Shown: positions 15,671-64,000 of the stretch, piece by piece
How the letters are laid out: every line of letters begins with the position of its first letter
Position numbering within the stretch: position 1 is the first letter of the stretch
NCBI GenBank assembly: GCA_008921705.1
Contig: VFFE01007759.1
Span: forward strand, 18,224 to 82,223
Direction of reading: 5' to 3'
DNA: 64,000 bases
Source of the DNA: Burhinus oedicnemus
Taxonomy: Eukaryota; Chordata; Aves; Charadriiformes; Burhinidae
Program-made: the position numbers and the translations under genes
The notes under the pieces: model-generated
The model's input: the letters and a program-made list of their open reading frames with translations, nothing else
Database searches by the model: none
What the model was told of the DNA's origin: nothing

Positions 15671-15756
15671 CACCCCAGGCCACGCCCCCGCCACCCCAGG
15701 CCACGCCCCCGTCACACCCAGGCCCCGCCCCCGTCACGCCCAGGCCCCGCCCACGC
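15671..15756 (-). promoter_or_regulatory. Four tandem 21-22 bp GC-box units
   Basis: Unit starts at 15671, 15692, 15713 and 15735. Each carries CCACGCCCCC or CCCCGCCC, an SP/KLF-type GC or CACCC box, 47-132 bp upstream of the ABHD12B ATG. Confidence 0.65.
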
Positions 15757-15910
15757 CCAGCTGTTCCCAGCCACCCTCCTGTCAGAAGGCCACGCCCCCT
15801 CGGGCAAAGCCACGCCCTCTCCCCGCCCCTTTGAGCCTCGGGGGCGGGGCCGGCGTGCCCTCCCCGGGGTCCCGGGGCACCCCCAGGGCCGCAGCCCCCT
15901 GTCCCCCGAG

Positions 15911-19770: not shown

Positions 19771-19773
19771 AGG

Positions 19774-20760
19774 GGTGCAGGACAGTGGGGAGCCAGGGTG
19801 ATGCCACCCTGGGGTACAGGACAGTGGGGAGCCAGGGTGATGCTACCCAGGTGACAAGACAGTGTGGAGCCAGGGTGATGCTACCCTGGGGTGCAGAACA
19901 GTGGGGATCCGGGGTCATGCCACCTTGCGGTGCAGGATGGTGGGAACCAAGGTGATGCCAGCCAGGAGACAAGACAGTGGGGAGCCAGGGCAATGCCACA
20001 CTGGGATGCAGGACAGCAGGGAGCTGGGGTGATGCCGCCCTGGGCTGCAGGATGGTGGGAACCAAGGTGATGCTAACTGGGGGACAGGACAGTGGGGAGC
20101 CAGGGTGATGCCGCCCTGGGATGCAGGATGGTGGGAACCAAGGTGATGCCCCCCGGGGGACAGGACAGTGGGGAGCCAGGGTGATGCTACCCTGGGGTGC
20201 ACGACAGTGGGGAGCCGGGGTGATGCCACCCTGGGCTGCAGGAATGTGGGAACCAAGGTGATGCCAGCCAGGAGACAAGACAGTGGGGAGCCAGGGCAAT
20301 GCCACACTGGGATGCAGGACAGCAGGGAGCTGGGGTGATGCCACCCTGGGGTGCAGGACAGTGGGGAGCCGGGGTGATGCCACCCTGGGCTGCAGGATGG
20401 TGGGAACCAAAGTGTTGCCACCCTGGAGTGCAGGATGGTGGGAACCAAGGTGATGCTAACTGGGGGACAGGACAGTGGGGAGCCAGGGTGATGCCGCCCT
20501 GGGATGCAGGATGGTGGGAACCAAGGTGATGCCCCCTGGGGGACAGGACAGTGGGGAGCCAGGGCGATGCCACACTGGGGTGCAGGACAGCGGGGAACTG
20601 GGGTGATGCCACCCTGGGGAGCAGGATGGTGGGAACCAAGGTGATGCCCCCCGGGGGAAAAGACAGTGGGGAGCCAGGGTGATGCCACCCTGGGGTGCAG
20701 GATGGTGGGAACCAAGGTGATGCCACCCAGGGGTCAGGACAGCGGGGATCACTATGGTGC
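19774..20760. repeat. 39-bp minisatellite, about 25 units
   Basis: Head-to-tail units close to 39 bp. Two main unit types recur: one with gacagtggggagccagggtg, one with gatggtgggaaccaaggtg. Blocks of several units recur as larger duplications, for example 19948-20040 against 20256-20340, and 20059-20160 against 20441-20545. Because 39 is a multiple of three, long minus-strand reading frames run through it; these are not genes. Confidence 0.9.
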
Positions 20761-20959
20761 TCTAGGGATGCAGGACAACGCGGTGGCCCCCACGCAGCTG
20801 TCACCCGTGCTGCGGGCCGCTGCCGCTGCCGGCCGGGGGGCGGTCCCGGGCGGTGCCAGCGGGGCCCCGCCGCACAAAGGCCTCCGGTCGCCCCCGCCCC
20901 GGGGCCGCCCCCCGCATCCCCGGGGCCGCCCCCGAGCTGCGGCCCAATAAACGCCGCCG

Positions 20960-21035
20960 CATTTGAACGCGGCACCTCCCCCGGTCCCGCAACGCTCCGC
21001 TCCGCCGCGCCCGGAGGCACCGGCAGCCGCGCCGG
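20960..21035 (+). other. NIN: Putative non-coding first exon of NIN
   Basis: A good donor, gtgagc, follows 21035 in the CpG block downstream of the CCAAT box. NIN has a 5' UTR exon before its coding exons. The 5' end is a guess. Confidence 0.35.
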
Positions 21036-21052
21036 GTGAGCCCGGGAGGGGA

Positions 21053-21072
21053 NNNNNNNNNNNNNNNNNNNN
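21053..21072. other. Assembly gap (20 N)
   Basis: Twenty N in the GC-rich NIN promoter or early intron 1. Confidence 0.98.
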
Positions 21073-26861: not shown

Positions 26862-27065
26862 GTGAGCGTGGCAGGCTATGGGATGGATGAAGCTGAGCAG
26901 GACCAGTATGAAGCTCGCCTCAAGGAGCTCTTCGACAGCTTCGACAGCACGGGCACGGGGTCCCTGGGGCAGGAGGAGCTCACCGACCTCTGCCACATGC
27001 TGCACCTGGAGGAGGTGGCCCCGGCGCTGCAGCAGACCCTCCTCCAAGGCAACCTCCTAGGCAGG
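26862..27065 (+). CDS. NIN: NIN exon with start codon
   Basis: Exon of 204 bp; coding starts at ATG 26883 (MDEAEQDQYEARLKELFDSF) and gives 61 codons. Acceptor ctccccgcag, donor gtaagg. The start is chosen by match to the ninein N-terminus. An out-of-frame ATG lies five bases upstream at 26878. EF-hand 1 loop: DSTGTGSLGQEE. Confidence 0.94.
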
Positions 27066-39000: not shown

Positions 39001-42000
39001 ACGGCATGAAGGTGCACGGGGGCTTGCAGGGGAAGAGCTGTAACCCCGTGTTCAGGAAAGCACCCTGGTTCTGGAAATGGGATTTCAGGGTGCTTGAGCT
39101 GGGATCCCCTCGGTATTTTGAAGTCGGAGCTTTGTAAGGCAGGAGCAAACTTTCTGCTCTTCTCTAACTCTCAAGGGTCACCTTTCGCTCCCAGGGAGGT
39201 TTTCGGGCTTCACGGTTTCCAAATTGCAAAGGAAAAACAAGCGCACCCCGGTGCTCAGAGGAGAGGGAGAGAAATCAGCCGCCAGCCTCCAAATGCTTAA
39301 AACGCAAAAATGGGGAGACGGCTCCTGTTTTCCCCACTTGCCGTTAAAGCGCTTGCAGGGTGGCACGGCACGAAGGCACCTGTGTTTCCACACACAGCTG
39401 GATTTTCAGCTGCAGCTGTGGTTAAACACGCTGTCGGGGCTGGGGGGATGGAAACAGGACTCTTCCGAGCATTGGGAAATCCAGAAGGAAATTAAGCCAT
39501 AGCTTCATTATTGCTAAATTACGGCTTCTTCTCCCCCGCATCGTTCTAAAGACAGATGGGCGCGGAGGTGCGTTTCTGTCTTCGAGGAGGAAAAATTATT
39601 TCTCAAAACCCCCCACGCCCCCCACCCCCCAAAAAAAAAAAAACCAAACAAAAAAACCCAAACCAAAACAAAAAAACCCCAAAAAAACCCAAAGCCCCCC
39701 AGCCCTCTTCTGCAAGGGCGGGGGAGATGGCAGGGAGAAAATAAATGGGTGACTGAGTAGCCACAAATATTAGCATTTCAGAGAGAGCTGCTGGATGGAG
39801 ATTGTTCACCACCGGGCAGGCTTTAATAGGAGTGATAAGGTTTGCTTTTGTTCTCGGGCTCTTACTTAATCAGCCTGTCTCGTTGCGATTTTTCTATCGG
39901 CGCACTTCATCACACAACTTTCATGTGCGAGTCCCAGCTGCAGCAAATCTTGTTAAAATGGCCTTGTTCAAACACGGGCGCCGGGTTTGTTCCCTAGAGC
40001 TGCAGTATGGATGGATGGAGTGCAAGGCTGGAGGAATCAAAGGACTCCTAGTCCTGTGTATTTTATAATTCATTGCATAGCTAAGTTGCAGAATATTTTT
40101 CCTCTAACAAGCTTGAAGCCTTCTACCATATCTAAAGGAATATTATCCAAGGAGGCATTTGGGCAGGGGGGGTTTAGAGACCCGCTGCTTTCTGTCTACC
40201 GTTTGTCAAGGATTGAACAGCATCCCTGCTCCTTATTAGTATTGCACTCTTGCATTTATTTTGTACCAGAGCGCTCTGCAAATAAAATTTTAAAAAGCTG
40301 CTGTTCTTGCCGCTGCCTTGGTGTGCTGCAAGTGGCGGAAAATAAAGACGATCGAGTCCTGGGGGGGTTTTCGATGGCAAGGTTAGCAAACACTGAAACA
40401 AAGCGTGGCGGAGAGCCTTTCCCTAATTGAATCCCTGGTTAATTTGGTCCTCTGTTTAATTTGCCCCCTACTCCAGACATCGGATGACTCTCGCTGAAAA
40501 TAGCCCAAAACGTGCTTATTTATTTTTCGTTTTTGATCCCAGTCCGTGAGCGCTCCCGGATAATTCAGTCCCCGAAGGCAGGAGGCTGCTGCGGGAAGCT
40601 GGAGCCGGGGAATGCGAGTGGAGCTGCGGAGCCCCCTGTAATTAGATGACGACTCCAAAGGGTTATTTAGGTCTCGCAGTTGGTGTCGGTTGCAGAGCGC
40701 AAGCTGGGACCTGCCCCGCCGTCGCCTGGATCAGCTGCTCGTGTTGGCCCCCAGGGGATGTTCCCCTCCAAACTTGCCCAATTTTTTTTCCACTCATCCG
40801 GTTGTTTGCACACTTTTAATTGAGCTGCGATTTAAATCCACCGAAAGCAGCGGCGGTCACCCAGGTGTCTGCGTAATCCAGAGACTTGAGCTGCTCAAGT
40901 GCTACACTGTCCCTAATTAAACCTGCCCATCGCTGGTAATGAAGATTAGCGCAAGGAGGGGAGACCTAATGGCTTTTCCATCCCAGGCTGCACTTGCAAG
41001 GTTGAGGGGGTTTTTCCCCCATCTTTTTAACTGAGCAAACTTAATTTGGGAATTGGGGAAGGGTGAGGAAGATGGAGCCCGGATTCCACTTTGTGACAGC
41101 CTCTGGTTTTTTGGGGGGTTTTGGGTTGTTTTTTTTTTGGAGCAGGACCAATTCCAACCCATCAGGCCCGATGCCACGGTGAGGGTAGTGGTCCTGGAAA
41201 GGAGCAGCCGCTGGCGCCTGCCGAGGGGGAATGGTGGTGGCAATTTGGTGCTTGAAACCCTGCAGCCGAACCTGCCCTGTGTGCTGTGACCCGGGAGCTG
41301 GATCCGCAAAAATTACGTTACCGATACGTTTTGTTCTTGAATTTCACAGATTCTTCCCCAGAAGCCCAGCCCAAGTACATCAAAGGTGGCAAACGCTACG
41401 GCCGGCGGTCCCTGCCGGAGTTCCAGGAGTCGGTGGAGGACTTTGCCGAGGTGACCGTCATCGAGCCGCTGAGCGAGGAAGCGCGTCCCCCGCACATCGC
41501 CTCCAGCGGCTGCGAGGAGGTGAGCGGGAAGGGGCCAGGCGCTGGGGTAGGCTGTGCCCCCCCCCCAGATGTCACTGCTCCCCACACCATCCTAAGGTGG
41601 TTTGGATGTCCTTGGGGTTGTCCCAGCGAAGGCGATGGTCGCCTTCCTCCCCTGTCCCCAGGGATCAGCTGTGCCAGGCGGCACCTCCCTTGCTCCAGCC
41701 CTGAATTCCCAGTCTGCAGAGAGGCTGCCGTGGGAAGCCGGGATGAGACCGGCTTGCGCAGTGGCACGGTGACGTGCACCGGCTGCTGGCGCCGCTGGCC
41801 TCCTCGTGCTCCTGGCTGCGGCGCAGGCCAGCAATTAAGTGAGGGCTGTAACGCTGCCTCCGTGGCTAACGAAGTGTGGGCTGGGAGCTAAGCGAGCAGA
41901 AGGAGCACGTCCTCATCTATTAGCTCATCTGGAAAGACCTGGCCGTGGCTCCGGCGCTCTCCGGTAGAGGGGATGGGGAAAAGGGGTGGTGAGCGGCGGA

Positions 42001-45000: not shown

Positions 45001-48000
45001 CCGACCCTGAGCCCCTGCCGTACAAAGGGACCCCCTCGCCCTCCGCAGCGGGGCCCCGGCACGGGGAGGGAGGTCACACGCGCTTCCCGGGGTGGGTGGC
45101 AGTGGGTTACCAGCCCGCAGCCCCCCCCTACTCCGCTATTTTCAGCCTCTTTGGGTTGCTGGTGTTCATGGAGTTACTGCGTGCTGTGGTTTGACCTTCT
45201 TGGTTTTGAGGCAAGCCCTTGAACTCAGAGGGTCTGGTGGTAAACGGTTTCGATCTGATTCTATAGAAAAATATGTACGTTGCTTACGGAAGAAGGCTTG
45301 GACGCAGCAGCGGACTCCTGAGCATCACTGCCCAGCTTCACCTGGGTGTCTCCCCCAAGGATGCGCAGCCCCACAGGGAGCGGCTGCAGGGCGGCAGCTC
45401 TGTCTGGCACCCAAAGGTACCTCCTCCCAGCACCGAGTGGGCTCTTGCATATGTACAGGCACTTATGGGCTGGGACGGGGTCAGCTTCCGCGTTTTTGGG
45501 AAGAGGGGCCACCGTCTGCCTTTGCAGAACGGTAATCTGACGGTACTAGGGTTGCCTCAGCTCCGGCTTTTTGTGTGCTTGTCCTGATGGTTTATCAGGC
45601 AAACCAGGAATCTGCCACCCTGATGCCTCGACGGTGGTGCTAGTAGGACAGCACTTATTTGGGCCAAAATCTGCAGCTTTCTACTGCAATATTATATATG
45701 TTCTTGGCTTTATCCAGAACATCCAGCAGAGCCGCAGGTTCCAGCCCTGCCTGTGACCTCCTGCCTCTGCCAGGCTGATCTGCCTGGGAAAGCAAAGGTT
45801 AAGCCCCCCTCCCACCTCCATCCAAGGCTCTCCCTGATTCCTGCCCTCCCCAAAAGCAGAGGGGTACACGGAGGAGCTGCAGCAGCAGCGGACGGCCCTG
45901 GTGTGGTCCAGCAGATGAAACGGGAGCAAGCAGAAGAGCTAAAAAAAAAAAAGGTCCAGTGACCTAATCCAGTTTCCATGGTAACGTTGTAGATTAATGG
46001 CTTTTAGCTGTAATCTGAATGAGATGTATTGAACTTTTATATGATGATTTAGAGCCTCTTTATGTCCTGGGTGACTTTGACTTCAAATCCATCGGTCACG
46101 TGTACGCAGAAGTAGCCACTTGTAACGGCGGCGAAGTAACATCTGCTGCTGCTAAACCAGGAGTTAACATCGCCGAGCATCGCGTGCGAGTAAATACCCT
46201 CGGCTGGTAGAGACAAGACAACGTGTAGTACACGGGGAGATCATTTTAAACCACGTACTTCTGCCCTGCTCCCGGAGCCGCCTGCGCTCATGTGCTGTTG
46301 CCACAGAGGAAGCGGGATGGCTTAAGACCAGCAAAGAGTGTTGGTTTTTTGTTGTTGGTTGGGTTTTTTTTTTGGTTTTCTCTAGCTCAGCGGCGAGCTT
46401 GTTGGCGGCACGGCTCTGTCTCCTGACCTGGAGCTACAGTTAGTGGAGATGTTTTGGAGCAGGCTGGGGCCGCTGGCCCTCGAGCTCTGCAGGCAGATGG
46501 GTGCCCCTTGGCGAAAGCATAAAGCAGCAAAAGCTTCATTTCCCGGATCGCACGTGCTCTGGAAGCAGATGTCCCCATGGCATTCGTGGGTTCATTGCAG
46601 CTTAATTACCTGCCGTGGATGCGTGTCCCTCCCGTGTCACCCGGGCTCTGCGGCTGGCGTGGGTGAGACGCCTGCGGAGGGGAGCGGGGCTGTGGGATGG
46701 TGGCGTGCCACGCAGGTTTCTACCCACGATGGGGATGCTCGACGCTCAAAAGTGCGCTGTGCTCGTGTCCCACGTACAAGATCCGGATGGGCTGTGGGTA
46801 GCAGCTCTGCAATGGGAAAATAGGGTGCTGGAAGGAAAAGGATAACCCAAACTCAGGTGGTGATTCAGCCCATGATCTTCCCTGCATCCTCATCATCTCG
46901 ACCATCGGTAGTTCGAAGACGAGCAGCATGGTTTGCTTGGGGGGCAAATCTCTCCCTCCCTCCTCATCAACCTGCCGGACTCAGATCCGTCACCTCTCGT
47001 GGGTCATTTGTGGGGCTTTAGGGCGTCTTTTGCTGCAGCTGTGCTTTATCCCCACCGAAGAACCTCGCGTGCCAGAAAAAGGCAGCATCAAAGAGCCGTG
47101 GATTGCCAGCCCAGCCCGCAGGGAGCGGGGAGATGAAAGCCTGGCGGCGTTGCTGGAGCCCTGTAGCTCGTTTGATGCTGATCGCAGAGTCTCTTTCATA
47201 CGGGTGATGTCTTGCAATAGTAATAACTCGGGGAACCTTTTGTTTTCTCCCCAGCACTGGAAGACGCGAGACAGCGAGGAGTACGAGGCCGAGGGTAAGA
47301 GCAAACAGCAGCACTTGTATGTGCTTATTCTCTTTCCAGCTTTGAAGATGAATCAGAGGGGCGCACTAAGAGGGTCTCGGGCCACCCTGGGTGCAGGGAG
47401 CAGTCCCAGCCTGGCGTGGTGCAGAGCTCGGCAAGGTGCACGTGGGGCAAGCAAGCCCCGAGCTGGGAGCAAAAGCTGAAGTGGGGTTCCTTGGAGGGCA
47501 CGGTCTTGCGGCTTACCCTCTCCGCCCTCTTCCCTTCCTCCCGCCCGGTGCAGAGGCTGACCTGCTGCAGGTGCCCCCCGGTTGTCCTGGCCACCAGCAC
47601 CCCCAGAGCAGTAGCCGGGGCTGGTCCTGGTCCCCACTCCTGCCCCAGGGGCTGCTGGCTGGAGTGGAGCACGGTAGGCACTAGATGTCAGCACGGACCA
47701 CAGTCGTTAAATGTTTCCTAATTGTCCTGTAAGACCCCTGGGGTGAGCGTTGGGCTTTGGTGCGAACCCTCAGCCCCCAAAGCTGTGTTTATAACTAAGG
47801 CGTGCGACTTCTAATTGCGTCAACGCCTCTTCCATGTTTCAGCTGCTCTCTAACCCCTACCCCATCCAAAGGAACCAAATTTTTTGCTCCAAAAGCTGCT
47901 TTTCCAGCCCCAGAGTGAGGTAGCGGGTGCAAGGAGGTGGCCTTGCAGCTGTGCAAGCTCGGACTGGTTTGTGCCTAGGGAGCGTTTCCAGCTGGGTGAG

Positions 48001-51000
48001 ACCACGCTGCAGGCATTTGCTGGAGGTAGAGGAAATGTGTTCAGCTGAAGGCTATTGGGTTTTTTCCTTCCCCTGGAAGTGTGTTTGGAAGTACTTGGAT
48101 CAAAACACACACTACAGTTTACATTCAAAGGGGATGGGAGTTTAGGCAGCTCCACCTGAAGGGGTTGACGCTTACGGAGATAGGCAACCACTGAAGTTCT
48201 CGATCTGGTCAAGGTATATATGGATGTGCAACTTGCTCAGTCCTCTGCCTTGATCCCATAACCGCCCAGAAGAGGAGGGCTCCTTTCTCCATCCATGCCA
48301 GTGGCCAAGGCAGCAGGGCTGCGCTTCCCCTGGCCACCAGCCCAGGTTGGCCACGGGACTCATCCATGTCCCCAGAGATCCTCCTGGCTGTGGTCCTGGC
48401 CGCAGCTCAGCCTGCGCCTGGACTCAGGGTTCCCTCGCCTGCGGTGGCACACGAGTTGAATGCTGAGCAGGATCTGCTCCTTCTGGTAGAGTCTGATAGC
48501 TATGCTGGTGCCGGTAGCTGTACCCCAAAATTACAAGTGCGCCCTGTGCAGGATGAGGTAAGGTAGATGGTCCCATGGGTCTGATGAGCAAGCAGGGAGG
48601 CTCTGCCCACTGCAGCAGTGAGTTCCCCGTGACATGCAGAACCCCCAGGTCTTCTGGTGGTCACTCCCGTGCAGTGGATGGGCAGAAACCGAAGCAGTTT
48701 TCCCCATTTCCAGGTCAGCTGCGCTTCTGGAACCCAGACGACCTGAATGCCTCCCCTGGTGCCTCACTGCCCAGCCCAGACTGGATAGAGGAGAAGCTGC
48801 AGGAGGTCTGCGAGCACCTTGGCATCACCAGGGATGGCCACCTGAACCGGAAAAAGCTCGTCTCCATTTGTGAGCAGTATGGGCTCCGAACGGCAGCCGG
48901 GGAGGTGAGTGGCCACATACGGACCCACTCGCACCAGCACGTGCTGCTTAGGTTTTAGTGTGGCCCCTGCAAAGTCTGTCCCGTGGTTGACCACAAGCAC
49001 AAGTGCTGGTTAACAGGTCGCTACTTGGAAGGTGGCTTTCGGCTCCAGCTTGTGACTTTCCAACGAGTTCGTTGGCGTTGAACCATCAGACGTGGGAGGC
49101 TGGTCTAGTAGAGCTGACACCGTAGCGTGCGTGTCTTCTCATGCAATCGCAGGGTAAACTGGCATTTAAAAACATATCCTAGATTCCAAGCATGTCTCCT
49201 TAATCCCAGAAATCTTCTAGCTAGATGGTAAATAGGGGTTAAAATATTCATAGATGGTTGCTTTTGACTTTGTGAAGGCCTGCGGGCTGTTTCTGTCCTG
49301 TAGGAAGAGTCCACGAGAAAATTATTTCTCTAGCTAAAAGTCTCTTGTCAAAAAAACCCACCCCAAAAAAACCCCACACAAAAAAACCACCAAAAAAAAG
49401 AAACCAAACAAAAAAACCCCAACACTACAAAACCAGACTGTTTTGCATCTTAAAGTAACATGGCTTGTAATAATTTTCATCATAAAGCGTGTTTCTGAGC
49501 AGGTATTCCTTTGCAGCATTTGCAGCAAAATGTTTTCAGGATATTAAGGCAGAATATGGAAGAAATAAAGTCTAGACAAAGAAATAGTGAGGGACTAATC
49601 TCAACATCTCTGGGCCTAATAAGGTTGGTCTTGCTTTTCAGAAAGCAGACTGCCCTGAAGCATAAAACTGATTTATTATAACCTTGCAGCGTCTTACTGT
49701 GGTTTTTCGCCTGGTCACTTCAGGCTGCTGGGGTTTTTGGCATCTGTCTCTCTGCCTCGCACTGAATCCCTGAGGTCACCCTGTCTCGAGAGCGGAACGA
49801 AACAAGGGGTTTTTCGTGCTGCCTCGCAAGACGGAGGCTCCGAGACGCGATGCCCAGGAGCTTACCTGCTTTTACAGGCAGGATTTTCCTACTGTATGTG
49901 GCTCTGAAGTTCTCGATCTGGTCAAGGTATATATGGATGTGCAACTTGCTCAGTCCTCTGCCTTGATCCCATAAATGCCCAGAAGAGGAGGGCTCCTTTC
50001 TCCATCCATGCCAGTGGCCAAGGCAGCAGGGCTGCACTTCCCCTGGCCACCAGCCCAGGTTGGCCACGGGACTCATCCACGTCCCCAGAGATCCTCCTGG
50101 CTGTGGTCCTGGCCGCAGCTCACCCTGCGCCTGGACTCAGGGTTCCCTCGCCTGCGGTGGCACACGAGTTGAATGCTGAGCAGGATCTGCTCCTTCTGGT
50201 AGAGTCTGATAGCTATGCTGGTGCCGGTAGCTGTACCCCAAAATTACAAGTGCGCCCTGTGCAGGATGAGGTAAGGTAGATGGTCCCATGGGTCTGATGA
50301 GCAAGCAGGGAGGCTCTGCCCACTGCAGCAGTGAGTTCCCCGTGACATGCAGAACCCCCAGGTCTTCTGGTGGTCACTCCCGTGCAGTGGATGGGCAGAA
50401 ACCGAAGCAGTTTTCCCCATTTCCAGGTCAGCTGCGCTTCTGGAACCCAGACGACCTGAATGCCTCCCCTGGTGCCTCACTGCCCAGCCCAGACTGGATA
50501 GAGGAGAAGCTGCAGGAGGTCTGCGAGCACCTTGGCATCACCAGGGATGGCCACCTGAACCGGAAAAAGCTCGTCTCCATTTGTGAGCAGTATGGGCTCC
50601 GAACGGCAGCCGGGGAGGTGAGTGGCCACATACGGACCCACTCGCACCAGCACGTGCTGCTTAGGTTTTAGTGTGGCCCCTGCAAAGTCTGTCCCGTGGT
50701 TGACCACAAGCACAAGTGCTGGTTAACAGGTCGCTACTTGGAAGGTGGCTTTCGGCTCCAGCTTGTGACTTTCCAACGAGTTCGTTGGCGTTGAACCATC
50801 AGACGTGGGAGGCTGGTCTAGTAGAGCTGACACCGTAGCGTGCGTGTCTTCTCATGCAATCGCAGGGTAAACTGGCATTTAAAAACATATCCTAGATTCC
50901 AAGCATGTCTCCTTAATCCCAGAAATCTTCTAGCTAGATGGTAAATAGGGGTTAAAATATTCATAGATGGTTGCTTTTGACTTTGTGAAGGCCTGCGGGC

Positions 51001-54000
51001 TGTTTCTGTCCTGTAGGAAGAGTCCACGAGAAAATTATTTCTCTAGCTAAAAGTCTCTTGTCAAAAAAACCCACCCCAAAAAAACCCCACACAAAAAAAC
51101 CACCAAAAAAAAGAAACCAAACAAAAAAACCCCAACACTACAAAACCAGACTGTTTTGCATCTTAAAGTAACATGGCTTGTAATAATTTTCATCATAAAG
51201 CGTGTTTCTGAGCAGGTATTCCTTTGCAGCATTTGCAGCAAAATGTTTTCAGGATATTAAGGCAGAATATGGAAGAAATAAAGTCTAGACAAAGAAATAG
51301 TGAGGGACTAATCTCAACATCTCTGGGCCTAATAAGGTTGGTCTTGCTTTTCAGAAAGCAGACTGCCCTGAAGCATAAAACTGATTTATTATAACCTTGC
51401 AGCGTCTTACTGTGGTTTTTCGCCTGGTCACTTCAGGCTGCTGGGGTTTTTGGCATCTGTCTCTCTGCCTCGCACTGAATCCCTGAGGTCACCCTGTCTC
51501 GAGAGCGGAACGAAACAAGGGGTTTTTCGTGCTGCCTCGCAAGACGGAGGCTCCGAGACGCGATGCCCAGGAGCTTACCTGCTTTTACAGGCAGGATTTT
51601 CCTACTGTATGTGGCTCTGAAGTTCTCGATCTGGTCAAGGTATATATGGATGTGCAACTTGCTCAGTCCTCTGCCTTGATCCCATAAATGCCCAGAAGAG
51701 GAGGGCTCCTTTCTCCATCCATGCCAGTGGCCAAGGCAGCAGGGCTGCACTTCCCCTGGCCACCAGCCCAGGTTGGCCACGGGACTCATCCACGTCCCCA
51801 GAGATCCTCCTGGCTGTGGTCCTGGCCGCAGCTCACCCTGCGCCTGGACTCAGGGTTCCCTCGCCTGCGGTGGCACACGAGTTGAATGCTGAGCAGGATC
51901 TGCTCCTTCTGGTAGAGTCTGATAGCTATGCTGGTGCCGGTAGCTGTACCCCAAAATTACAAGTGCGCCCTGTGCAGGATGAGGTAAGGTAGATGGTCCC
52001 ATGGGTCTGATGAGCAAGCAGGGAGGCTCTGCCCACTGCAGCAGTGAGTTCCCCGTGACATGCAGAACCCCCAGGTCTTCTGGTGGTCACTCCCGTGCAG
52101 TGGATGGGCAGAAACCGAAGCAGTTTTCCCCATTTCCAGGTCAGCTGCGCTTCTGGAACCCAGACGACCTGAATGCCTCCCCTGGTGCCTCACTGCCCAG
52201 CCCAGACTGGATAGAGGAGAAGCTGCAGGAGGTCTGCGAGCACCTTGGCATCACCAGGGATGGCCACCTGAACCGGAAAAAGCTCGTCTCCATTTGTGAG
52301 CAGTATGGGCTCCGAACGGCAGCCGGGGAGGTGAGTGGCCACATACGGACCCACTCGCACCAGCACGTGCTGCTTAGGTTTTAGTGTGGCCCCTGCAAAG
52401 TCTGTCCCGTGGTTGACCACAAGCACAAGTGCTGGTTAACAGGTCGCTACTTGGAAGGTGGCTTTCGGCTCCAGCTTGTGACTTTCCAACGAGTTCGTTG
52501 GCGTTGAACCATCAGACGTGGGAGGCTGGTCTAGTAGAGCTGACACCGTAGCGTGCGTGTCTTCTCATGCAATCGCAGGGTAAACTGGCATTTAAAAACA
52601 TATCCTAGATTCCAAGCATGTCTCCTTAATCCCAGAAATCTTCTAGCTAGATGGTAAATAGGGGTTAAAATATTCATAGATGGTTGCTTTTGACTTTGTG
52701 AAGGCCTGCGGGCTGTTTCTGTCCTGTAGGAAGAGTCCACGAGAAAATTATTTCTCTAGCTAAAAGTCTCTTGTCAAAAAAACCCACCCCAAAAAAACCC
52801 CACACAAAAAAACCACCAAAAAAAAGAAACCAAACAAAAAAACCCCAACACTACAAAACCAGACTGTTTTGCATCTTAAAGTAACATGGCTTGTAATAAT
52901 TTTCATCATAAAGCGTGTTTCTGAGCAGGTATTCCTTTGCAGCATTTGCAGCAAAATGTTTTCAGGATATTAAGGCAGAATATGGAAGAAATAAAGTCTA
53001 GACAAAGAAATAGTGAGGGACTAATCTCAACATCTCTGGGCCTAATAAGGTTGGTCTTGCTTTTCAGAAAGCAGACTGCCCTGAAGCATAAAACTGATTT
53101 ATTATAACCTTGCAGCGTCTTACTGTGGTTTTTCGCCTGGTCACTTCAGGCTGCTGGGGTTTTTGGCATCTGTCTCTCTGCCTCGCACTGAATCCCTGAG
53201 GTCACCCTGTCTCGAGAGCGGAACGAAACAAGGGGTTTTTCGTGCTGCCTCGCAAGACGGAGGCTCCGAGACGCGATGCCCAGGAGCTTACCTGCTTTTA
53301 CAGGCAGGATTTTCCTACTGTATGTGGCTCTGAAGTTCTCGATCTGGTCAAGGTATATATGGATGTGCAACTTGCTCAGTCCTCTGCCTTGATCCCATAA
53401 ATGCCCAGAAGAGGAGGGCTCCTTTCTCCATCCATGCCAGTGGCCAAGGCAGCAGGGCTGCACTTCCCCTGGCCACCAGCCCAGGTTGGCCACGGGACTC
53501 ATCCACGTCCCCAGAGATCCTCCTGGCTGTGGTCCTGGCCGCAGCTCACCCTGCGCCTGGACTCAGGGTTCCCTCGCCTGCGGTGGCACACGAGTTGAAT
53601 GCTGAGCAGGATCTGCTCCTTCTGGTAGAGTCTGATAGCTATGCTGGTGCCGGTAGCTGTACCCCAAAATTACAAGTGCGCCCTGTGCAGGATGAGGTAA
53701 GGTAGATGGTCCCATGGGTCTGATGAGCAAGCAGGGAGGCTCTGCCCACTGCAGCAGTGAGTTCCCCGTGACATGCAGAACCCCCAGGTCTTCTGGTGGT
53801 CACTCCCGTGCAGTGGATGGGCAGAAACCGAAGCAGTTTTCCCCATTTCCAGGTCAGCTGCGCTTCTGGAACCCAGACGACCTGAATGCCTCCCCTGGTG
53901 CCTCACTGCCCAGCCCAGACTGGATAGAGGAGAAGCTGCAGGAGGTCTGCGAGCACCTTGGCATCACCAGGGATGGCCACCTGAACCGGAAAAAGCTCGT

Positions 54001-57000
54001 CTCCATTTGTGAGCAGTATGGGCTCCGAACGGCAGCCGGGGAGGTGAGTGGCCACATACGGACCCACTCGCACCAGCACGTGCTGCTTAGGTTTTAGTGT
54101 GGCCCCTGCAAAGTCTGTCCCGTGGTTGACCACAAGCACAAGTGCTGGTTAACAGGTCGCTACTTGGAAGGTGGCTTTCGGCTCCAGCTTGTGACTTTCC
54201 AACGAGTTCGTTGGCGTTGAACCATCAGACGTGGGAGGCTGGTCTAGTAGAGCTGACACCGTAGCGTGCGTGTCTTCTCATGCAATCGCAGGGTAAACTG
54301 GCATTTAAAAACATATCCTAGATTCCAAGCATGTCTCCTTAATCCCAGAAATCTTCTAGCTAGATGGTAAATAGGGGTTAAAATATTCATAGATGGTTGC
54401 TTTTGACTTTGTGAAGGCCTGCGGGCTGTTTCTGTCCTGTAGGAAGAGTCCACGAGAAAATTATTTCTCTAGCTAAAAGTCTCTTGTCAAAAAAACCCAC
54501 CCCAAAAAAACCCCACACAAAAAAACCACCAAAAAAAAGAAACCAAACAAAAAAACCCCAACACTACAAAACCAGACTGTTTTGCATCTTAAAGTAACAT
54601 GGCTTGTAATAATTTTCATCATAAAGCGTGTTTCTGAGCAGGTATTCCTTTGCAGCATTTGCAGCAAAATGTTTTCAGGATATTAAGGCAGAATATGGAA
54701 GAAATAAAGTCTAGACAAAGAAATAGTGAGGGACTAATCTCAACATCTCTGGGCCTAATAAGGTTGGTCTTGCTTTTCAGAAAGCAGACTGCCCTGAAGC
54801 ATAAAACTGATTTATTATAACCTTGCAGCGTCTTACTGTGGTTTTTCGCCTGGTCACTTCAGGCTGCTGGGGTTTTTGGCATCTGTCTCTCTGCCTCGCA
54901 CTGAATCCCTGAGGTCACCCTGTCTCGAGAGCGGAACGAAACAAGGGGTTTTTCGTGCTGCCTCGCAAGACGGAGGCTCCGAGACGCGATGCCCAGGAGC
55001 TTACCTGCTTTTACAGGCAGGATTTTCCTACTGTATGTGGCTCTGAAGTTCTCGATCTGGTCAAGGTATATATGGATGTGCAACTTGCTCAGTCCTCTGC
55101 CTTGATCCCATAAATGCCCAGAAGAGGAGGGCTCCTTTCTCCATCCATGCCAGTGGCCAAGGCAGCAGGGCTGCACTTCCCCTGGCCACCAGCCCAGGTT
55201 GGCCACGGGACTCATCCACGTCCCCAGAGATCCTCCTGGCTGTGGTCCTGGCCGCAGCTCACCCTGCGCCTGGACTCAGGGTTCCCTCGCCTGCGGTGGC
55301 ACACGAGTTGAATGCTGAGCAGGATCTGCTCCTTCTGGTAGAGTCTGATAGCTATGCTGGTGCCGGTAGCTGTACCCCAAAATTACAAGTGCGCCCTGTG
55401 CAGGATGAGGTAAGGTAGATGGTCCCATGGGTCTGATGAGCAAGCAGGGAGGCTCTGCCCACTGCAGCAGTGAGTTCCCCGTGACATGCAGAACCCCCAG
55501 GTCTTCTGGTGGTCACTCCCGTGCAGTGGATGGGCAGAAACCGAAGCAGTTTTCCCCATTTCCAGGTCAGCTGCGCTTCTGGAACCCAGACGACCTGAAT
55601 GCCTCCCCTGGTGCCTCACTGCCCAGCCCAGACTGGATAGAGGAGAAGCTGCAGGAGGTCTGCGAGCACCTTGGCATCACCAGGGATGGCCACCTGAACC
55701 GGAAAAAGCTCGTCTCCATTTGTGAGCAGTATGGGCTCCGAACGGCAGCCGGGGAGGTGAGTGGCCACATACGGACCCACTCGCACCAGCACGTGCTGCT
55801 TAGGTTTTAGTGTGGCCCCTGCAAAGTCTGTCCCGTGGTTGACCACAAGCACAAGTGCTGGTTAACAGGTCGCTACTTGGAAGGTGGCTTTCGGCTCCAG
55901 CTTGTGACTTTCCAACGAGTTCGTTGGCGTTGAACCATCAGACGTGGGAGGCTGGTCTAGTAGAGCTGACACCGTAGCGTGCGTGTCTTCTCATGCAATC
56001 GCAGGGTAAACTGGCATTTAAAAACATATCCTAGATTCCAAGCATGTCTCCTTAATCCCAGAAATCTTCTAGCTAGATGGTAAATAGGGGTTAAAATATT
56101 CATAGATGGTTGCTTTTGACTTTGTGAAGGCCTGCGGGCTGTTTCTGTCCTGTAGGAAGAGTCCACGAGAAAATTATTTCTCTAGCTAAAAGTCTCTTGT
56201 CAAAAAAACCCACCCCAAAAAAACCCCACACAAAAAAACCACCAAAAAAAAGAAACCAAACAAAAAAACCCCAACACTACAAAACCAGACTGTTTTGCAT
56301 CTTAAAGTAACATGGCTTGTAATAATTTTCATCATAAAGCGTGTTTCTGAGCAGGTATTCCTTTGCAGCATTTGCAGCAAAATGTTTTCAGGATATTAAG
56401 GCAGAATATGGAAGAAATAAAGTCTAGACAAAGAAATAGTGAGGGACTAATCTCAACATCTCTGGGCCTAATAAGGTTGGTCTTGCTTTTCAGAAAGCAG
56501 ACTGCCCTGAAGCATAAAACTGATTTATTATAACCTTGCAGCGTCTTACTGTGGTTTTTCGCCTGGTCACTTCAGGCTGCTGGGGTTTTTGGCATCTGTC
56601 TCTCTGCCTCGCACTGAATCCCTGAGGTCACCCTGTCTCGAGAGCGGAACGAAACAAGGGGTTTTTCGTGCTGCCTCGCAAGACGGAGGCTCCGAGACGC
56701 GATGCCCAGGAGCTTACCTGCTTTTACAGGCAGGATTTTCCTACTGTATGTGGCTCTGAAGTTCTCGATCTGGTCAAGGTATATATGGATGTGCAACTTG
56801 CTCAGTCCTCTGCCTTGATCCCATAAATGCCCAGAAGAGGAGGGCTCCTTTCTCCATCCATGCCAGTGGCCAAGGCAGCAGGGCTGCACTTCCCCTGGCC
56901 ACCAGCCCAGGTTGGCCACGGGACTCATCCACGTCCCCAGAGATCCTCCTGGCTGTGGTCCTGGCCGCAGCTCACCCTGCGCCTGGACTCAGGGTTCCCT

Positions 57001-60000
57001 CGCCTGCGGTGGCACACGAGTTGAATGCTGAGCAGGATCTGCTCCTTCTGGTAGAGTCTGATAGCTATGCTGGTGCCGGTAGCTGTACCCCAAAATTACA
57101 AGTGCGCCCTGTGCAGGATGAGGTAAGGTAGATGGTCCCATGGGTCTGATGAGCAAGCAGGGAGGCTCTGCCCACTGCAGCAGTGAGTTCCCCGTGACAT
57201 GCAGAACCCCCAGGTCTTCTGGTGGTCACTCCCGTGCAGTGGATGGGCAGAAACCGAAGCAGTTTTCCCCATTTCCAGGTCAGCTGCGCTTCTGGAACCC
57301 AGACGACCTGAATGCCTCCCCTGGTGCCTCACTGCCCAGCCCAGACTGGATAGAGGAGAAGCTGCAGGAGGTCTGCGAGCACCTTGGCATCACCAGGGAT
57401 GGCCACCTGAACCGGAAAAAGCTCGTCTCCATTTGTGAGCAGTATGGGCTCCGAACGGCAGCCGGGGAGGTGAGTGGCCACATACGGACCCACTCGCACC
57501 AGCACGTGCTGCTTAGGTTTTAGTGTGGCCCCTGCAAAGTCTGTCCCGTGGTTGACCACAAGCACAAGTGCTGGTTAACAGGTCGCTACTTGGAAGGTGG
57601 CTTTCGGCTCCAGCTTGTGACTTTCCAACGAGTTCGTTGGCGTTGAACCATCAGACGTGGGAGGCTGGTCTAGTAGAGCTGACACCGTAGCGTGCGTGTC
57701 TTCTCATGCAATCGCAGGGTAAACTGGCATTTAAAAACATATCCTAGATTCCAAGCATGTCTCCTTAATCCCAGAAATCTTCTAGCTAGATGGTAAATAG
57801 GGGTTAAAATATTCATAGATGGTTGCTTTTGACTTTGTGAAGGCCTGCGGGCTGTTTCTGTCCTGTAGGAAGAGTCCACGAGAAAATTATTTCTCTAGCT
57901 AAAAGTCTCTTGTCAAAAAAACCCACCCCAAAAAAACCCCACACAAAAAAACCACCAAAAAAAAGAAACCAAACAAAAAAACCCCAACACTACAAAACCA
58001 GACTGTTTTGCATCTTAAAGTAACATGGCTTGTAATAATTTTCATCATAAAGCGTGTTTCTGAGCAGGTATTCCTTTGCAGCATTTGCAGCAAAATGTTT
58101 TCAGGATATTAAGGCAGAATATGGAAGAAATAAAGTCTAGACAAAGAAATAGTGAGGGACTAATCTCAACATCTCTGGGCCTAATAAGGTTGGTCTTGCT
58201 TTTCAGAAAGCAGACTGCCCTGAAGCATAAAACTGATTTATTATAACCTTGCAGCGTCTTACTGTGGTTTTTCGCCTGGTCACTTCAGGCTGCTGGGGTT
58301 TTTGGCATCTGTCTCTCTGCCTCGCACTGAATCCCTGAGGTCACCCTGTCTCGAGAGCGGAACGAAACAAGGGGTTTTTCGTGCTGCCTCGCAAGACGGA
58401 GGCTCCGAGACGCGATGCCCAGGAGCTTACCTGCTTTTACAGGCAGGATTTTCCTACTGTATGTGGCTCTGAAGTTCTCGATCTGGTCAAGGTATATATG
58501 GATGTGCAACTTGCTCAGTCCTCTGCCTTGATCCCATAAATGCCCAGAAGAGGAGGGCTCCTTTCTCCATCCATGCCAGTGGCCAAGGCAGCAGGGCTGC
58601 ACTTCCCCTGGCCACCAGCCCAGGTTGGCCACGGGACTCATCCACGTCCCCAGAGATCCTCCTGGCTGTGGTCCTGGCCGCAGCTCACCCTGCGCCTGGA
58701 CTCAGGGTTCCCTCGCCTGCGGTGGCACACGAGTTGAATGCTGAGCAGGATCTGCTCCTTCTGGTAGAGTCTGATAGCTATGCTGGTGCCGGTAGCTGTA
58801 CCCCAAAATTACAAGTGCGCCCTGTGCAGGATGAGGTAAGGTAGATGGTCCCATGGGTCTGATGAGCAAGCAGGGAGGCTCTGCCCACTGCAGCAGTGAG
58901 TTCCCCGTGACATGCAGAACCCCCAGGTCTTCTGGTGGTCACTCCCGTGCAGTGGATGGGCAGAAACCGAAGCAGTTTTCCCCATTTCCAGGTCAGCTGC
59001 GCTTCTGGAACCCAGACGACCTGAATGCCTCCCCTGGTGCCTCACTGCCCAGCCCAGACTGGATAGAGGAGAAGCTGCAGGAGGTCTGCGAGCACCTTGG
59101 CATCACCAGGGATGGCCACCTGAACCGGAAAAAGCTCGTCTCCATTTGTGAGCAGTATGGGCTCCGAACGGCAGCCGGGGAGGTGAGTGGCCACATACGG
59201 ACCCACTCGCACCAGCACGTGCTGCTTAGGTTTTAGTGTGGCCCCTGCAAAGTCTGTCCCGTGGTTGACCACAAGCACAAGTGCTGGTTAACAGGTCGCT
59301 ACTTGGAAGGTGGCTTTCGGCTCCAGCTTGTGACTTTCCAACGAGTTCGTTGGCGTTGAACCATCAGACGTGGGAGGCTGGTCTAGTAGAGCTGACACCG
59401 TAGCGTGCGTGTCTTCTCATGCAATCGCAGGGTAAACTGGCATTTAAAAACATATCCTAGATTCCAAGCATGTCTCCTTAATCCCAGAAATCTTCTAGCT
59501 AGATGGTAAATAGGGGTTAAAATATTCATAGATGGTTGCTTTTGACTTTGTGAAGGCCTGCGGGCTGTTTCTGTCCTGTAGGAAGAGTCCACGAGAAAAT
59601 TATTTCTCTAGCTAAAAGTCTCTTGTCAAAAAAACCCACCCCAAAAAAACCCCACACAAAAAAACCACCAAAAAAAAGAAACCAAACAAAAAAACCCCAA
59701 CACTACAAAACCAGACTGTTTTGCATCTTAAAGTAACATGGCTTGTAATAATTTTCATCATAAAGCGTGTTTCTGAGCAGGTATTCCTTTGCAGCATTTG
59801 CAGCAAAATGTTTTCAGGATATTAAGGCAGAATATGGAAGAAATAAAGTCTAGACAAAGAAATAGTGAGGGACTAATCTCAACATCTCTGGGCCTAATAA
59901 GGTTGGTCTTGCTTTTCAGAAAGCAGACTGCCCTGAAGCATAAAACTGATTTATTATAACCTTGCAGCGTCTTACTGTGGTTTTTCGCCTGGTCACTTCA

Positions 60001-63000
60001 GGCTGCTGGGGTTTTTGGCATCTGTCTCTCTGCCTCGCACTGAATCCCTGAGGTCACCCTGTCTCGAGAGCGGAACGAAACAAGGGGTTTTTCGTGCTGC
60101 CTCGCAAGACGGAGGCTCCGAGACGCGATGCCCAGGAGCTTACCTGCTTTTACAGGCAGGATTTTCCTACTGTATGTGGCTCTGAAGTTCTCGATCTGGT
60201 CAAGGTATATATGGATGTGCAACTTGCTCAGTCCTCTGCCTTGATCCCATAAATGCCCAGAAGAGGAGGGCTCCTTTCTCCATCCATGCCAGTGGCCAAG
60301 GCAGCAGGGCTGCACTTCCCCTGGCCACCAGCCCAGGTTGGCCACGGGACTCATCCACGTCCCCAGAGATCCTCCTGGCTGTGGTCCTGGCCGCAGCTCA
60401 CCCTGCGCCTGGACTCAGGGTTCCCTCGCCTGCGGTGGCACACGAGTTGAATGCTGAGCAGGATCTGCTCCTTCTGGTAGAGTCTGATAGCTATGCTGGT
60501 GCCGGTAGCTGTACCCCAAAATTACAAGTGCGCCCTGTGCAGGATGAGGTAAGGTAGATGGTCCCATGGGTCTGATGAGCAAGCAGGGAGGCTCTGCCCA
60601 CTGCAGCAGTGAGTTCCCCGTGACATGCAGAACCCCCAGGTCTTCTGGTGGTCACTCCCGTGCAGTGGATGGGCAGAAACCGAAGCAGTTTTCCCCATTT
60701 CCAGGTCAGCTGCGCTTCTGGAACCCAGACGACCTGAATGCCTCCCCTGGTGCCTCACTGCCCAGCCCAGACTGGATAGAGGAGAAGCTGCAGGAGGTCT
60801 GCGAGCACCTTGGCATCACCAGGGATGGCCACCTGAACCGGAAAAAGCTCGTCTCCATTTGTGAGCAGTATGGGCTCCGAACGGCAGCCGGGGAGGTGAG
60901 TGGCCACATACGGACCCACTCGCACCAGCACGTGCTGCTTAGGTTTTAGTGTGGCCCCTGCAAAGTCTGTCCCGTGGTTGACCACAAGCACAAGTGCTGG
61001 TTAACAGGTCGCTACTTGGAAGGTGGCTTTCGGCTCCAGCTTGTGACTTTCCAACGAGTTCGTTGGCGTTGAACCATCAGACGTGGGAGGCTGGTCTAGT
61101 AGAGCTGACACCGTAGCGTGCGTGTCTTCTCATGCAATCGCAGGGTAAACTGGCATTTAAAAACATATCCTAGATTCCAAGCATGTCTCCTTAATCCCAG
61201 AAATCTTCTAGCTAGATGGTAAATAGGGGTTAAAATATTCATAGATGGTTGCTTTTGACTTTGTGAAGGCCTGCGGGCTGTTTCTGTCCTGTAGGAAGAG
61301 TCCACGAGAAAATTATTTCTCTAGCTAAAAGTCTCTTGTCAAAAAAACCCACCCCAAAAAAACCCCACACAAAAAAACCACCAAAAAAAAGAAACCAAAC
61401 AAAAAAACCCCAACACTACAAAACCAGACTGTTTTGCATCTTAAAGTAACATGGCTTGTAATAATTTTCATCATAAAGCGTGTTTCTGAGCAGGTATTCC
61501 TTTGCAGCATTTGCAGCAAAATGTTTTCAGGATATTAAGGCAGAATATGGAAGAAATAAAGTCTAGACAAAGAAATAGTGAGGGACTAATCTCAACATCT
61601 CTGGGCCTAATAAGGTTGGTCTTGCTTTTCAGAAAGCAGACTGCCCTGAAGCATAAAACTGATTTATTATAACCTTGCAGCGTCTTACTGTGGTTTTTCG
61701 CCTGGTCACTTCAGGCTGCTGGGGTTTTTGGCATCTGTCTCTCTGCCTCGCACTGAATCCCTGAGGTCACCCTGTCTCGAGAGCGGAACGAAACAAGGGG
61801 TTTTTCGTGCTGCCTCGCAAGACGGAGGCTCCGAGACGCGATGCCCAGGAGCTTACCTGCTTTTACAGGCAGGATTTTCCTACTGTATGTGGCTCTGAAG
61901 TTCTCGATCTGGTCAAGGTATATATGGATGTGCAACTTGCTCAGTCCTCTGCCTTGATCCCATAAATGCCCAGAAGAGGAGGGCTCCTTTCTCCATCCAT
62001 GCCAGTGGCCAAGGCAGCAGGGCTGCACTTCCCCTGGCCACCAGCCCAGGTTGGCCACGGGACTCATCCACGTCCCCAGAGATCCTCCTGGCTGTGGTCC
62101 TGGCCGCAGCTCACCCTGCGCCTGGACTCAGGGTTCCCTCGCCTGCGGTGGCACACGAGTTGAATGCTGAGCAGGATCTGCTCCTTCTGGTAGAGTCTGA
62201 TAGCTATGCTGGTGCCGGTAGCTGTACCCCAAAATTACAAGTGCGCCCTGTGCAGGATGAGGTAAGGTAGATGGTCCCATGGGTCTGATGAGCAAGCAGG
62301 GAGGCTCTGCCCACTGCAGCAGTGAGTTCCCCGTGACATGCAGAACCCCCAGGTCTTCTGGTGGTCACTCCCGTGCAGTGGATGGGCAGAAACCGAAGCA
62401 GTTTTCCCCATTTCCAGGTCAGCTGCGCTTCTGGAACCCAGACGACCTGAATGCCTCCCCTGGTGCCTCACTGCCCAGCCCAGACTGGATAGAGGAGAAG
62501 CTGCAGGAGGTCTGCGAGCACCTTGGCATCACCAGGGATGGCCACCTGAACCGGAAAAAGCTCGTCTCCATTTGTGAGCAGTATGGGCTCCGAACGGCAG
62601 CCGGGGAGGTGAGTGGCCACATACGGACCCACTCGCACCAGCACGTGCTGCTTAGGTTTTAGTGTGGCCCCTGCAAAGTCTGTCCCGTGGTTGACCACAA
62701 GCACAAGTGCTGGTTAACAGGTCGCTACTTGGAAGGTGGCTTTCGGCTCCAGCTTGTGACTTTCCAACGAGTTCGTTGGCGTTGAACCATCAGACGTGGG
62801 AGGCTGGTCTAGTAGAGCTGACACCGTAGCGTGCGTGTCTTCTCATGCAATCGCAGGGTAAACTGGCATTTAAAAACATATCCTAGATTCCAAGCATGTC
62901 TCCTTAATCCCAGAAATCTTCTAGCTAGATGGTAAATAGGGGTTAAAATATTCATAGATGGTTGCTTTTGACTTTGTGAAGGCCTGCGGGCTGTTTCTGT

Positions 63001-64000
63001 CCTGTAGGAAGAGTCCACGAGAAAATTATTTCTCTAGCTAAAAGTCTCTTGTCAAAAAAACCCACCCCAAAAAAACCCCACACAAAAAAACCACCAAAAA
63101 AAAGAAACCAAACAAAAAAACCCCAACACTACAAAACCAGACTGTTTTGCATCTTAAAGTAACATGGCTTGTAATAATTTTCATCATAAAGCGTGTTTCT
63201 GAGCAGGTATTCCTTTGCAGCATTTGCAGCAAAATGTTTTCAGGATATTAAGGCAGAATATGGAAGAAATAAAGTCTAGACAAAGAAATAGTGAGGGACT
63301 AATCTCAACATCTCTGGGCCTAATAAGGTTGGTCTTGCTTTTCAGAAAGCAGACTGCCCTGAAGCATAAAACTGATTTATTATAACCTTGCAGCGTCTTA
63401 CTGTGGTTTTTCGCCTGGTCACTTCAGGCTGCTGGGGTTTTTGGCATCTGTCTCTCTGCCTCGCACTGAATCCCTGAGGTCACCCTGTCTCGAGAGCGGA
63501 ACGAAACAAGGGGTTTTTCGTGCTGCCTCGCAAGACGGAGGCTCCGAGACGCGATGCCCAGGAGCTTACCTGCTTTTACAGGCAGGATTTTCCTACTGTA
63601 TGTGGCTCTGAAGTTCTCGATCTGGTCAAGGTATATATGGATGTGCAACTTGCTCAGTCCTCTGCCTTGATCCCATAAATGCCCAGAAGAGGAGGGCTCC
63701 TTTCTCCATCCATGCCAGTGGCCAAGGCAGCAGGGCTGCACTTCCCCTGGCCACCAGCCCAGGTTGGCCACGGGACTCATCCACGTCCCCAGAGATCCTC
63801 CTGGCTGTGGTCCTGGCCGCAGCTCACCCTGCGCCTGGACTCAGGGTTCCCTCGCCTGCGGTGGCACACGAGTTGAATGCTGAGCAGGATCTGCTCCTTC
63901 TGGTAGAGTCTGATAGCTATGCTGGTGCCGGTAGCTGTACCCCAAAATTACAAGTGCGCCCTGTGCAGGATGAGGTAAGGTAGATGGTCCCATGGGTCTG
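26883..64000 (+). CDS. NIN: NIN (ninein), first five coding exons; gene continues past window
   Basis: Large coiled-coil protein that anchors microtubules at the mother centriole's subdistal appendages. Coding exons: 26883-27065, 33762-33843, 41350-41519, 47255-47294 and 48714-48904. They join in one frame for 666 bp, residues 1-222, all in the EF-hand head; the coiled coils lie beyond the window. Segments such as QDQYEARLKELFDSFD, VHFDQFKEALILILSRTLSN, KRYGRRSLPEFQESV and QLRFWNPDDLNAS match NIN much better than NINL. EF-hand 1 is near residues 8-43; EF-hand 3 is near 182-217, with a loop lacking the usual Asp at position 1 and Glu at 12. The fifth exon lies in a 1713-bp tandem array and recurs eight more times before the window ends. 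Confidence 0.95.
27481..27506. repeat. (CA)n microsatellite
   Basis: About 13 CA units with one CG interruption. Confidence 0.95.
30521..30960 (-). mobile_element. CR1 LINE fragment, 5'-truncated
   Basis: About 440 bp. On plus it starts with the reversed CR1 3' end (catagaatggtttggg, ggaagggacc, ccatgggcagggacacctcc) and runs to aggctgaacacccccaactc. The element therefore points to the minus strand, with its 3' end at 30521. Its 5' end is cut near 30960, as usual for CR1. This is the clearest avian marker in the window. Confidence 0.93.
33061..33080. other. Assembly gap (20 N)
   Basis: Twenty N directly before an A/C-rich low-complexity tract. Confidence 0.98.
33081..33148 (+). repeat. A/C-rich low-complexity tract
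   Basis: Runs of 10-14 A separated by runs of C, beside the gap at 33061-33080. Confidence 0.9.
33762..33843 (+). CDS. NIN: NIN second coding exon
   Basis: 82 bp, residues 62-89. Encodes VHFDQFKEALILILSRTLSN followed by EEHFQEP. Acceptor is a long T-run then ccacag; donor gtaaat. Confidence 0.96.
33844..41349 (+). other. NIN: NIN intron (7.5 kb)
   Basis: T-rich tracts at 37240-37272 and 41104-41140, an A/C-rich tract at 39609-39700, and an AT-rich unique block at about 39.75-40.95 kb. No exon or transposon is recognised. Confidence 0.65.
39609..39700 (+). repeat. A/C-rich low-complexity tract
   Basis: Alternating A-runs and C-runs, the same style as at 33081 and in each unit of the 1713-bp array. 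Confidence 0.88.
41350..41519 (+). CDS. NIN: NIN third coding exon
   Basis: 170 bp, residues 89-145. Encodes SSPEAQPKYIKGGKRYGRRS and LPEFQESVEDFAEVTVIEPL. Acceptor atttcacag, donor gtgagc. Confidence 0.96.
41520..47254 (+). other. NIN: NIN intron (5.7 kb)
   Basis: T-runs at 42198-42213 and 46341-46382, and a probable old CR1 fragment at about 43450-43600. Otherwise nothing is recognised. Confidence 0.65.
43450..43600 (+). mobile_element. Probable old CR1 3' fragment
   Basis: Degenerate match in CR1 sense order: ctgcccagagaggct, then a ccctgc.gtgagcagaggg-like block, then gaggttccctctgacct. Borders are uncertain. Confidence 0.45.
47255..47294 (+). CDS. NIN: NIN fourth coding exon (40 bp)
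   Basis: Encodes HWKTRDSEEYEAE plus one base of Gly, residues 146-159. Acceptor ctccccag, donor gtaaga. Confidence 0.94.
47295..48190 (+). other. NIN: NIN intron, unique left flank of the array
   Basis: Single-copy intron sequence up to the array border. No element is recognised. Confidence 0.7.
48714..48904 (+). CDS. NIN: NIN fifth coding exon, array copy 1
   Basis: 191 bp, residues 159-222. Encodes QLRFWNPDDLNASPGASLPS, then WIEEKLQEVCEHLGITRDGH and KKLVSICEQYGLRTAAGE: EF-hand 3 of ninein. Acceptor ccccatttccag, donor gtgagtgg. Enters with one base carried over and ends on a complete codon. Confidence 0.96.
49350..49426 (+). repeat. A/C-rich tract inside the array unit (first copy)
   Basis: Seven or more A-runs of 6-8 split by C-runs; the complement is G-runs split by T-runs. 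Recurs every 1713 bp in the array. Confidence 0.9.
50427..50617 (+). CDS. NIN: NIN exon, array copy 2
   Basis: Same sequence and splice sites as copy 1. Read after copy 1 it meets TGA at 50457-50459. Confidence 0.6.
52140..52330 (+). CDS. NIN: NIN exon, array copy 3
   Basis: Intact copy with acceptor and donor, 1713 bp after copy 2. Confidence 0.6.
53853..54043 (+). CDS. NIN: NIN exon, array copy 4
   Basis: Intact copy with acceptor and donor. Confidence 0.6.
55566..55756 (+). CDS. NIN: NIN exon, array copy 5
   Basis: Intact copy with acceptor and donor. Confidence 0.6.
57279..57469 (+). CDS. NIN: NIN exon, array copy 6
   Basis: Intact copy with acceptor and donor. Confidence 0.6.
58992..59182 (+). 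CDS. NIN: NIN exon, array copy 7
   Basis: Intact copy with acceptor and donor. Confidence 0.6.
60705..60895 (+). CDS. NIN: NIN exon, array copy 8
   Basis: Intact copy with acceptor and donor. Confidence 0.6.
62418..62608 (+). CDS. NIN: NIN exon, array copy 9
   Basis: Last complete copy in the window. The next would start at 64131, past the edge. Confidence 0.6.

Follow-up and report, generated by a model that had tools for sequence, protein, structure and literature searches.

A 1,713-bp tandem array in a bird genome assembly repeats a NIN exon whose extra copies are predicted to break the reading frame

The known sets of mutually exclusive exons offer exons that differ from one another. 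The reading frame of such sets is not addressed in the available sections of PMC9013439. The closest known kind of locus to the array described here is the LPA KIV-2 coding VNTR of human apolipoprotein(a), in which two exons sum to 342 nt, a multiple of three, and a unit can add a domain (available sections of PMC11201333 and PMC11462820). False exon gains have been reported for the previous assemblies of zebra finch, Anna's hummingbird and platypus; gaps between the copies are given as one sign of a false gain, and haplotype duplication as the main source, except in the hummingbird (available sections of PMC9516828). In a limited search of open papers by titles and the beginnings of abstracts, no description of an intragenic NIN exon array or of an avian exon macrosatellite was found. 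In the assembly analysed here, head-to-tail units of more than 1 kb are located inside one gene, NIN, with an exon in each.

The window, i.e. the whole stretch of DNA analysed, comprises 64,000 nucleotides and corresponds to positions 18224-82223 of contig C1233, in an assembly of 1,169,565,922 bases and 1,504 contigs. In a lag scan of the window, strong periods were confined to 1713 bp and multiples of it, with an identity of 0.90 at lag 1713 and of 0.29 at the best unrelated lag. The first unit of this 1,713-bp head-to-tail array starts at window position 48191, and the share of the array within the window (48191..64000, + strand) amounts to 9.23 units with nine complete copies of a 191-nt NIN exon. 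Copy 1, between the acceptor TTTCCAG and the donor GTGAGT, was found at 48714..48904 on the + strand, and the identical copies 2 to 9 follow on the same strand at multiples of 1713 bp (50427..50617, 52140..52330, 53853..54043, 55566..55756, 57279..57469, 58992..59182, 60705..60895 and 62418..62608). Units 1 and 2 have five mismatches only (48262, 48263, 48323, 48367 and 48410), all in the first 220 bp of the unit. From 48411 to the end of the window, every base equals its partner 1713 bp downstream wherever this partner is within the window.

The assembly itself was searched with 1,201 bases of the unit, resulting in 24 matches. Seventeen of these were 100% identical over the full query, all on C1233; the other seven were short and restricted to the A/C-rich tract of the unit. 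The whole array extends from C1233:66414 to 95534, on one contig, and comprises 17 complete units and 29,121 bp. The exon is identical in all 17 copies. The first-pass annotation had described a clean tandem array of the NIN exon with at least nine copies, which agrees with the nine complete copies in the window and is exceeded by the 17 on the contig. It had also called the units near-identical; the high similarity was borne out, and the term is too loose for units 2-17, which are letter-for-letter one sequence, with only unit 1 deviating at its five positions.

The assignment of the amplified exon to NIN, which had been made from the window alone, was confirmed by protein comparison and by gene order. 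When translated, the head exons of NIN on the contig joined without a stop, and the product matched "ninein, partial [Homo sapiens]" with 86% identity over 86% of the length; its first 89 residues were identical to a hypothetical protein of the bird Pitangus sulphuratus, in line with the bird origin assumed in the first-pass annotation. The order of the exons was examined for the part of the gene covered by an 800-residue query, and within this part the NIN exons follow one another collinearly on the contig from window position 26883 to C1233:113593. Four coding exons precede the array on the + strand. The first (26883..27065, 183 nt) has its ATG at 26883 and is followed by the second (33762..33843, 82 nt), the third (41350..41519, 170 nt) and the fourth (47255..47294, 40 nt), which is the last before the array and ends in phase 1. 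The array is located between this 40-nt exon (C1233:65478-65517) and an exon at C1233:102299-102445, and more NIN exons succeed one another in the gene's order on either side. Pfam EF-hand matches above the cut-off covered residues 10-44, encoded by the first coding exon, and none above the cut-off was obtained in the repeated exon. The earlier placement of the array in the EF-hand head of NIN is corrected accordingly: the EF-hand recognized by Pfam is carried by the first coding exon and not by the repeated one. By sequence search against the PDB, the best match of the repeated exon was a ribosomal protein (E 0.027), and the NIN head matched eight chains, all of EF-hand proteins (e.g. calmodulin and troponin C) and none of ninein. 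Rfam gave 0 matches in window positions 46000-52000, and the pattern of the exon DNA gave 0 matches in the bacterial and archaeal genome collection.

A search with the NIN head gave 60 listed matches among 1,210 candidates. Among the matches listed, six multi-exon proteins span both borders of the exon (P0002, P0003, P0004, P0008, P0011 and P0012, the last with a gapped match), and in all six the single matched stretch corresponds to one copy. Sixteen further listed matches (P0013-P0024, P0034, P0035, P0037 and P0039, with the longest contigs up to 31,952 bases) are frames of the exon alone plus some intron, with one copy each. Three matches are excluded from these counts: P0005, with its end within the exon, and both P0058 and P0059, whose identity to the exon is only 26-28%. 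No exact match to this exon was present among the matches listed, the best being 97%, so that none of them is shown to come from this animal. The comparison with the NIN locus of relatives, which the first-pass annotation had proposed as a check, thus yielded one copy in each spanning protein, and the relatives do not decide the copy number here. The protein P0002 (public, jgi, on a contig of 20,045 bases) is a NIN-like protein of 415 residues with 91% identity to the NIN head; either a spliced gene prediction or a processed copy in a different animal could account for it.

The repeated exon is entered in phase 1 and left in phase 0, i.e. it completes a codon started in the preceding exon and ends at a codon border. 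In-silico splicing at the usual acceptor gave an open frame with one copy and a stop with 0, 2, 3, 4, 7, 10, 16 and 17 copies. The position of the stop did not vary among the splices with at least two copies: it was always codon 11 of the second copy. With a length of 191 nt and these phases, nine or 17 copies cannot simply add to the protein: at the usual acceptor, the units do not keep the frame and copy number does not set protein length. The addition of all nine (17) exons to the protein was considered and was ruled out by the stop in the second copy. The earlier reading as an amplified exon was right in recognizing a tandem NIN exon, but it missed that the exon is asymmetric and that two or more copies give a stop.

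A second AG is present 5 nt downstream of the usual one. Its use for copies 2 onward reduces the exon to 186 nt and gave an open frame with 2, 3 and 17 copies, the numbers tried. This AG would be expected to be weak, since it sits behind the first AG and is followed by C, and an escape by this route is conceivable at best, because identical copies give copy 1 no cause to differ from the others in the AG used. Exons that are identical, have good splice sites and are spaced by 1.5 kb would by default all be included, and protein from such an allele would then be abolished. Since the exon is entered in phase 1 and left in phase 0, NIN would be read correctly only when a single copy, no more and no fewer, is joined at the usual acceptor. 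Judged solely from consensus splice sites and frame, transcripts with at least two copies are predicted to stop early and to be destroyed by nonsense-mediated decay, and the allele is predicted to make less ninein or none unless splicing holds to one copy. Of ninein-null mice, 65% were viable, with 35% lethality (available sections of PMC6441496), and null mice are described as viable and able to reproduce, with smaller litters (available sections of PMC11175614). As null mice are partly viable, a weak NIN allele in one bird would not be absurd, but it would be costly, and because of the cost of ninein loss a frame-breaking allele should be selected against.

Three versions of the unit start were distinguished. 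The first 227 bp of unit 1 (R_left, 48191..48417, + strand) contain its five differences from the internal units. The same stretch in unit 2 (R_int, 49904..50130, + strand) recurs identically in units 2-17. At the right edge, a 227-bp partial unit with five differences follows unit 17. Comparison of the left, internal and right versions over the first 220-227 bp gave nine differing positions: the left edge alone differs at unit positions 72, 73, 177 and 220, the right edge alone at 49, 132, 206 and 207, and the internal units alone at 133, where they have a private A. The partial unit is followed by 194 bp of other sequence and then by a run of 6,183 N, which has one and the same CT-rich simple repeat on its two sides. 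In the interval that separates the array from the next NIN exon, outside the window, this run is flanked by a CTCCCTCTCTCT repeat and a T run, over roughly the 100 bases that precede C1233 position 95956 and the 60 bases that follow 102138. The right flank also contains a 31-base echo of the unit junction, with 27 of 31 letters in agreement (0 of 20,000 shuffles as good), and this echo was read as the old right border of the unit. The unit ends share CTG[A/C]AGTT[C/T]TC with 9 of 11 letters, a stretch that could have seeded the first duplication.

The order at the left edge was compared with that in a relative. A protein-database search with the frame that crosses the tandem junction gave one match (P0062) among 13 candidates. 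This protein has 172 residues and the source label "lgn", which we take to stand for contigs assembled from public reads, and the tandem junction is absent from the match. Its open frame extends from the left flank across the 227-bp stretch and comes within 7 bases of the exon, which argues that the left edge represents the ancestral order and that the start of the repeat is plain NIN intron. The possibility that the first 227 bp are a separate mobile repeat was rejected on the evidence of this one relative, which has the same order beside the same left flank. The base-by-base comparison was done by our own reading of the protein alignment back through the codons. Read in this way, P0062 supports a G at unit position 133, which indicates that the internal A is derived, and it agrees with the internal base at positions 49, 73, 206-207 and 220; position 177 is silent in this comparison.

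The internal start is thus a third sequence with its own derived base, joined to the unit body on both sides, and this points to a real duplication. The presence of at least two real units in the animal is considered highly probable. With moderate confidence, we favour a true intragenic duplication of at least two units that was recently expanded or homogenised, the count of 17 being probably inflated or fixed by the assembler; a unit number near 17 is doubtful. The first duplication would have joined the two imperfectly matching 11-bp stretches at the unit ends. Later copies would have arisen by unequal exchange or gene conversion between units, with the outer edges left diverged, and the last copy would have lost its body and exon by deletion. 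Several points stand against this explanation. Sixteen identical units over 27 kb also fit a consensus copied by software, and the neighbouring contig pieces resemble a short-read scaffold. R_int could in principle represent another allele, at which the assembly arrived through a wrong walk across the 48 letters common to the three versions. At unit position 72 the codons of P0062 imply C or T, which would not be in line with the A of the internal and right versions. Selection would also be expected to act against an allele that breaks the frame.

The quality of the assembly bears on the count. Contig C1233 is interrupted by five runs of N, four with exactly 20 N and the one of 6,183 N, and falls into pieces of at least 10.3 kb and then 10.8, 12.0, 44.7, 30.3 and 63.2 kb. 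Two-thirds of the 44.7-kb piece is array, and its 29 kb of repeat are free of gaps. Of the five breaks, three have poly-C, poly-A or CT-rich sequence next to them and two have none. This pattern of breaks suggests a short-read scaffold, which could not have read through 29 kb of perfect repeat, and the count of 17 is for this reason doubtful. Assemblers of the Celera family typically use a minimum gap of 20 N, and they are able to insert the consensus of a single repeat over and over. The 20-N runs within the window, a mark of the assembler, are at 10263-10282, 21053-21072 and 33061-33080, and the ten bases before the first of them recur directly after it as an unmerged overlap. No N was found in 40 kb sampled as four stretches from two other contigs, a sample too small to stand for the assembly in general. 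The readable part of the contig outside the array contained 231 repeated 40-mers, none with an array-like lag and extent, which indicates that looping is not general on this contig. The 40-mers starting at 19940-20114 recur at lags of 306 and 383 bp as local direct repeats, and those starting at 30565-30640 recur at two places on the contig, 62.8 and 101.8 kb off, probably as a dispersed repeat.

A real and recent macrosatellite of about 17 units in NIN, individually variable and homogenised by unequal exchange, would mean that the contig is a faithful picture, and this is regarded as a tentative possibility. Diverged outer edges around an identical core are expected of a real array and are present here. 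The 0 differences in 27.4 kb would be accommodated by spread within approximately 12,000-24,000 generations, at assumed mutation rates of 9e-9 and 4.6e-9 per site per generation. Both the short-read-like scaffold and the selection to be expected against an allele with 17 frame-breaking exon copies that all have good splice sites speak against such an array.

A pure assembly artefact, in which the animal has one complete unit and a short partial second start and the assembler looped many times, is considered unlikely. The perfect identity of units 2-17 would follow from such looping, and the left edge, diverged over 220 bp, corresponds to the same stretch as the 227 bp of the partial copy on the right, which would close a loop in the assembly graph. 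An uninterrupted 29 kb in a scaffold that is broken five times, in three cases at poly-C, poly-A or CT-rich sequence, points in the same direction, and false exon gains are documented in bird and platypus assemblies (PMC9516828, available sections). The internal start, however, alternates between the two edges and has a base found in neither, so that a chimera would have to switch several times over 227 bp and acquire a new mutation as well. The private base and the alternating sites argue against an array made up of nothing but what its two edges supply, although another allele could be their source. If the versions were alleles, it would be odd for five differences to fall in 220 bp and 0 in the 1,493 bp that follow. 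Recent expansion, homogenisation and assembly error, the three readings offered by the first-pass annotation, were all kept. That up to 17 identical frame-breaking exons are transcribed while the spliceosome keeps exactly one, with copy number dialling the dose of ninein between individuals, is very improbable.

If the copies are real, the locus would be a natural splicing experiment with identical tandem exons whose joining is forbidden by the frame. Transcripts would then show whether the splicing machinery holds to one of several identical exons or whether the allele is weak, and copy number would form a naturally graded dose series of a centrosome gene. Should the copies prove not to be real, the locus would be a clean case of a short partial duplication around an exon that was inflated into a persuasive coding macrosatellite, and the edge copies, together with the phase of the exon, would have proved useful for checking such claims.

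As far as the available sections of the sources go, the NIN array and LPA KIV-2 have in common an exon-bearing intragenic unit with introns, a period in the kilobase range and near-identical copies. Unlike in LPA KIV-2, the unit of the NIN array has a single 191-nt exon, and extra copies break the frame. With mutually exclusive tandem exons of the Dscam type, the array shares a frame that allows one copy only; the copies of such a cluster encode different versions, whereas the 17 NIN exons are identical, and a choice among them would thus leave the protein unchanged. The false exon gains resemble the NIN array as extra exon copies inside a gene in bird assemblies, from which the array differs by its 17 units, of which 16 are identical, and by its diverged edges.
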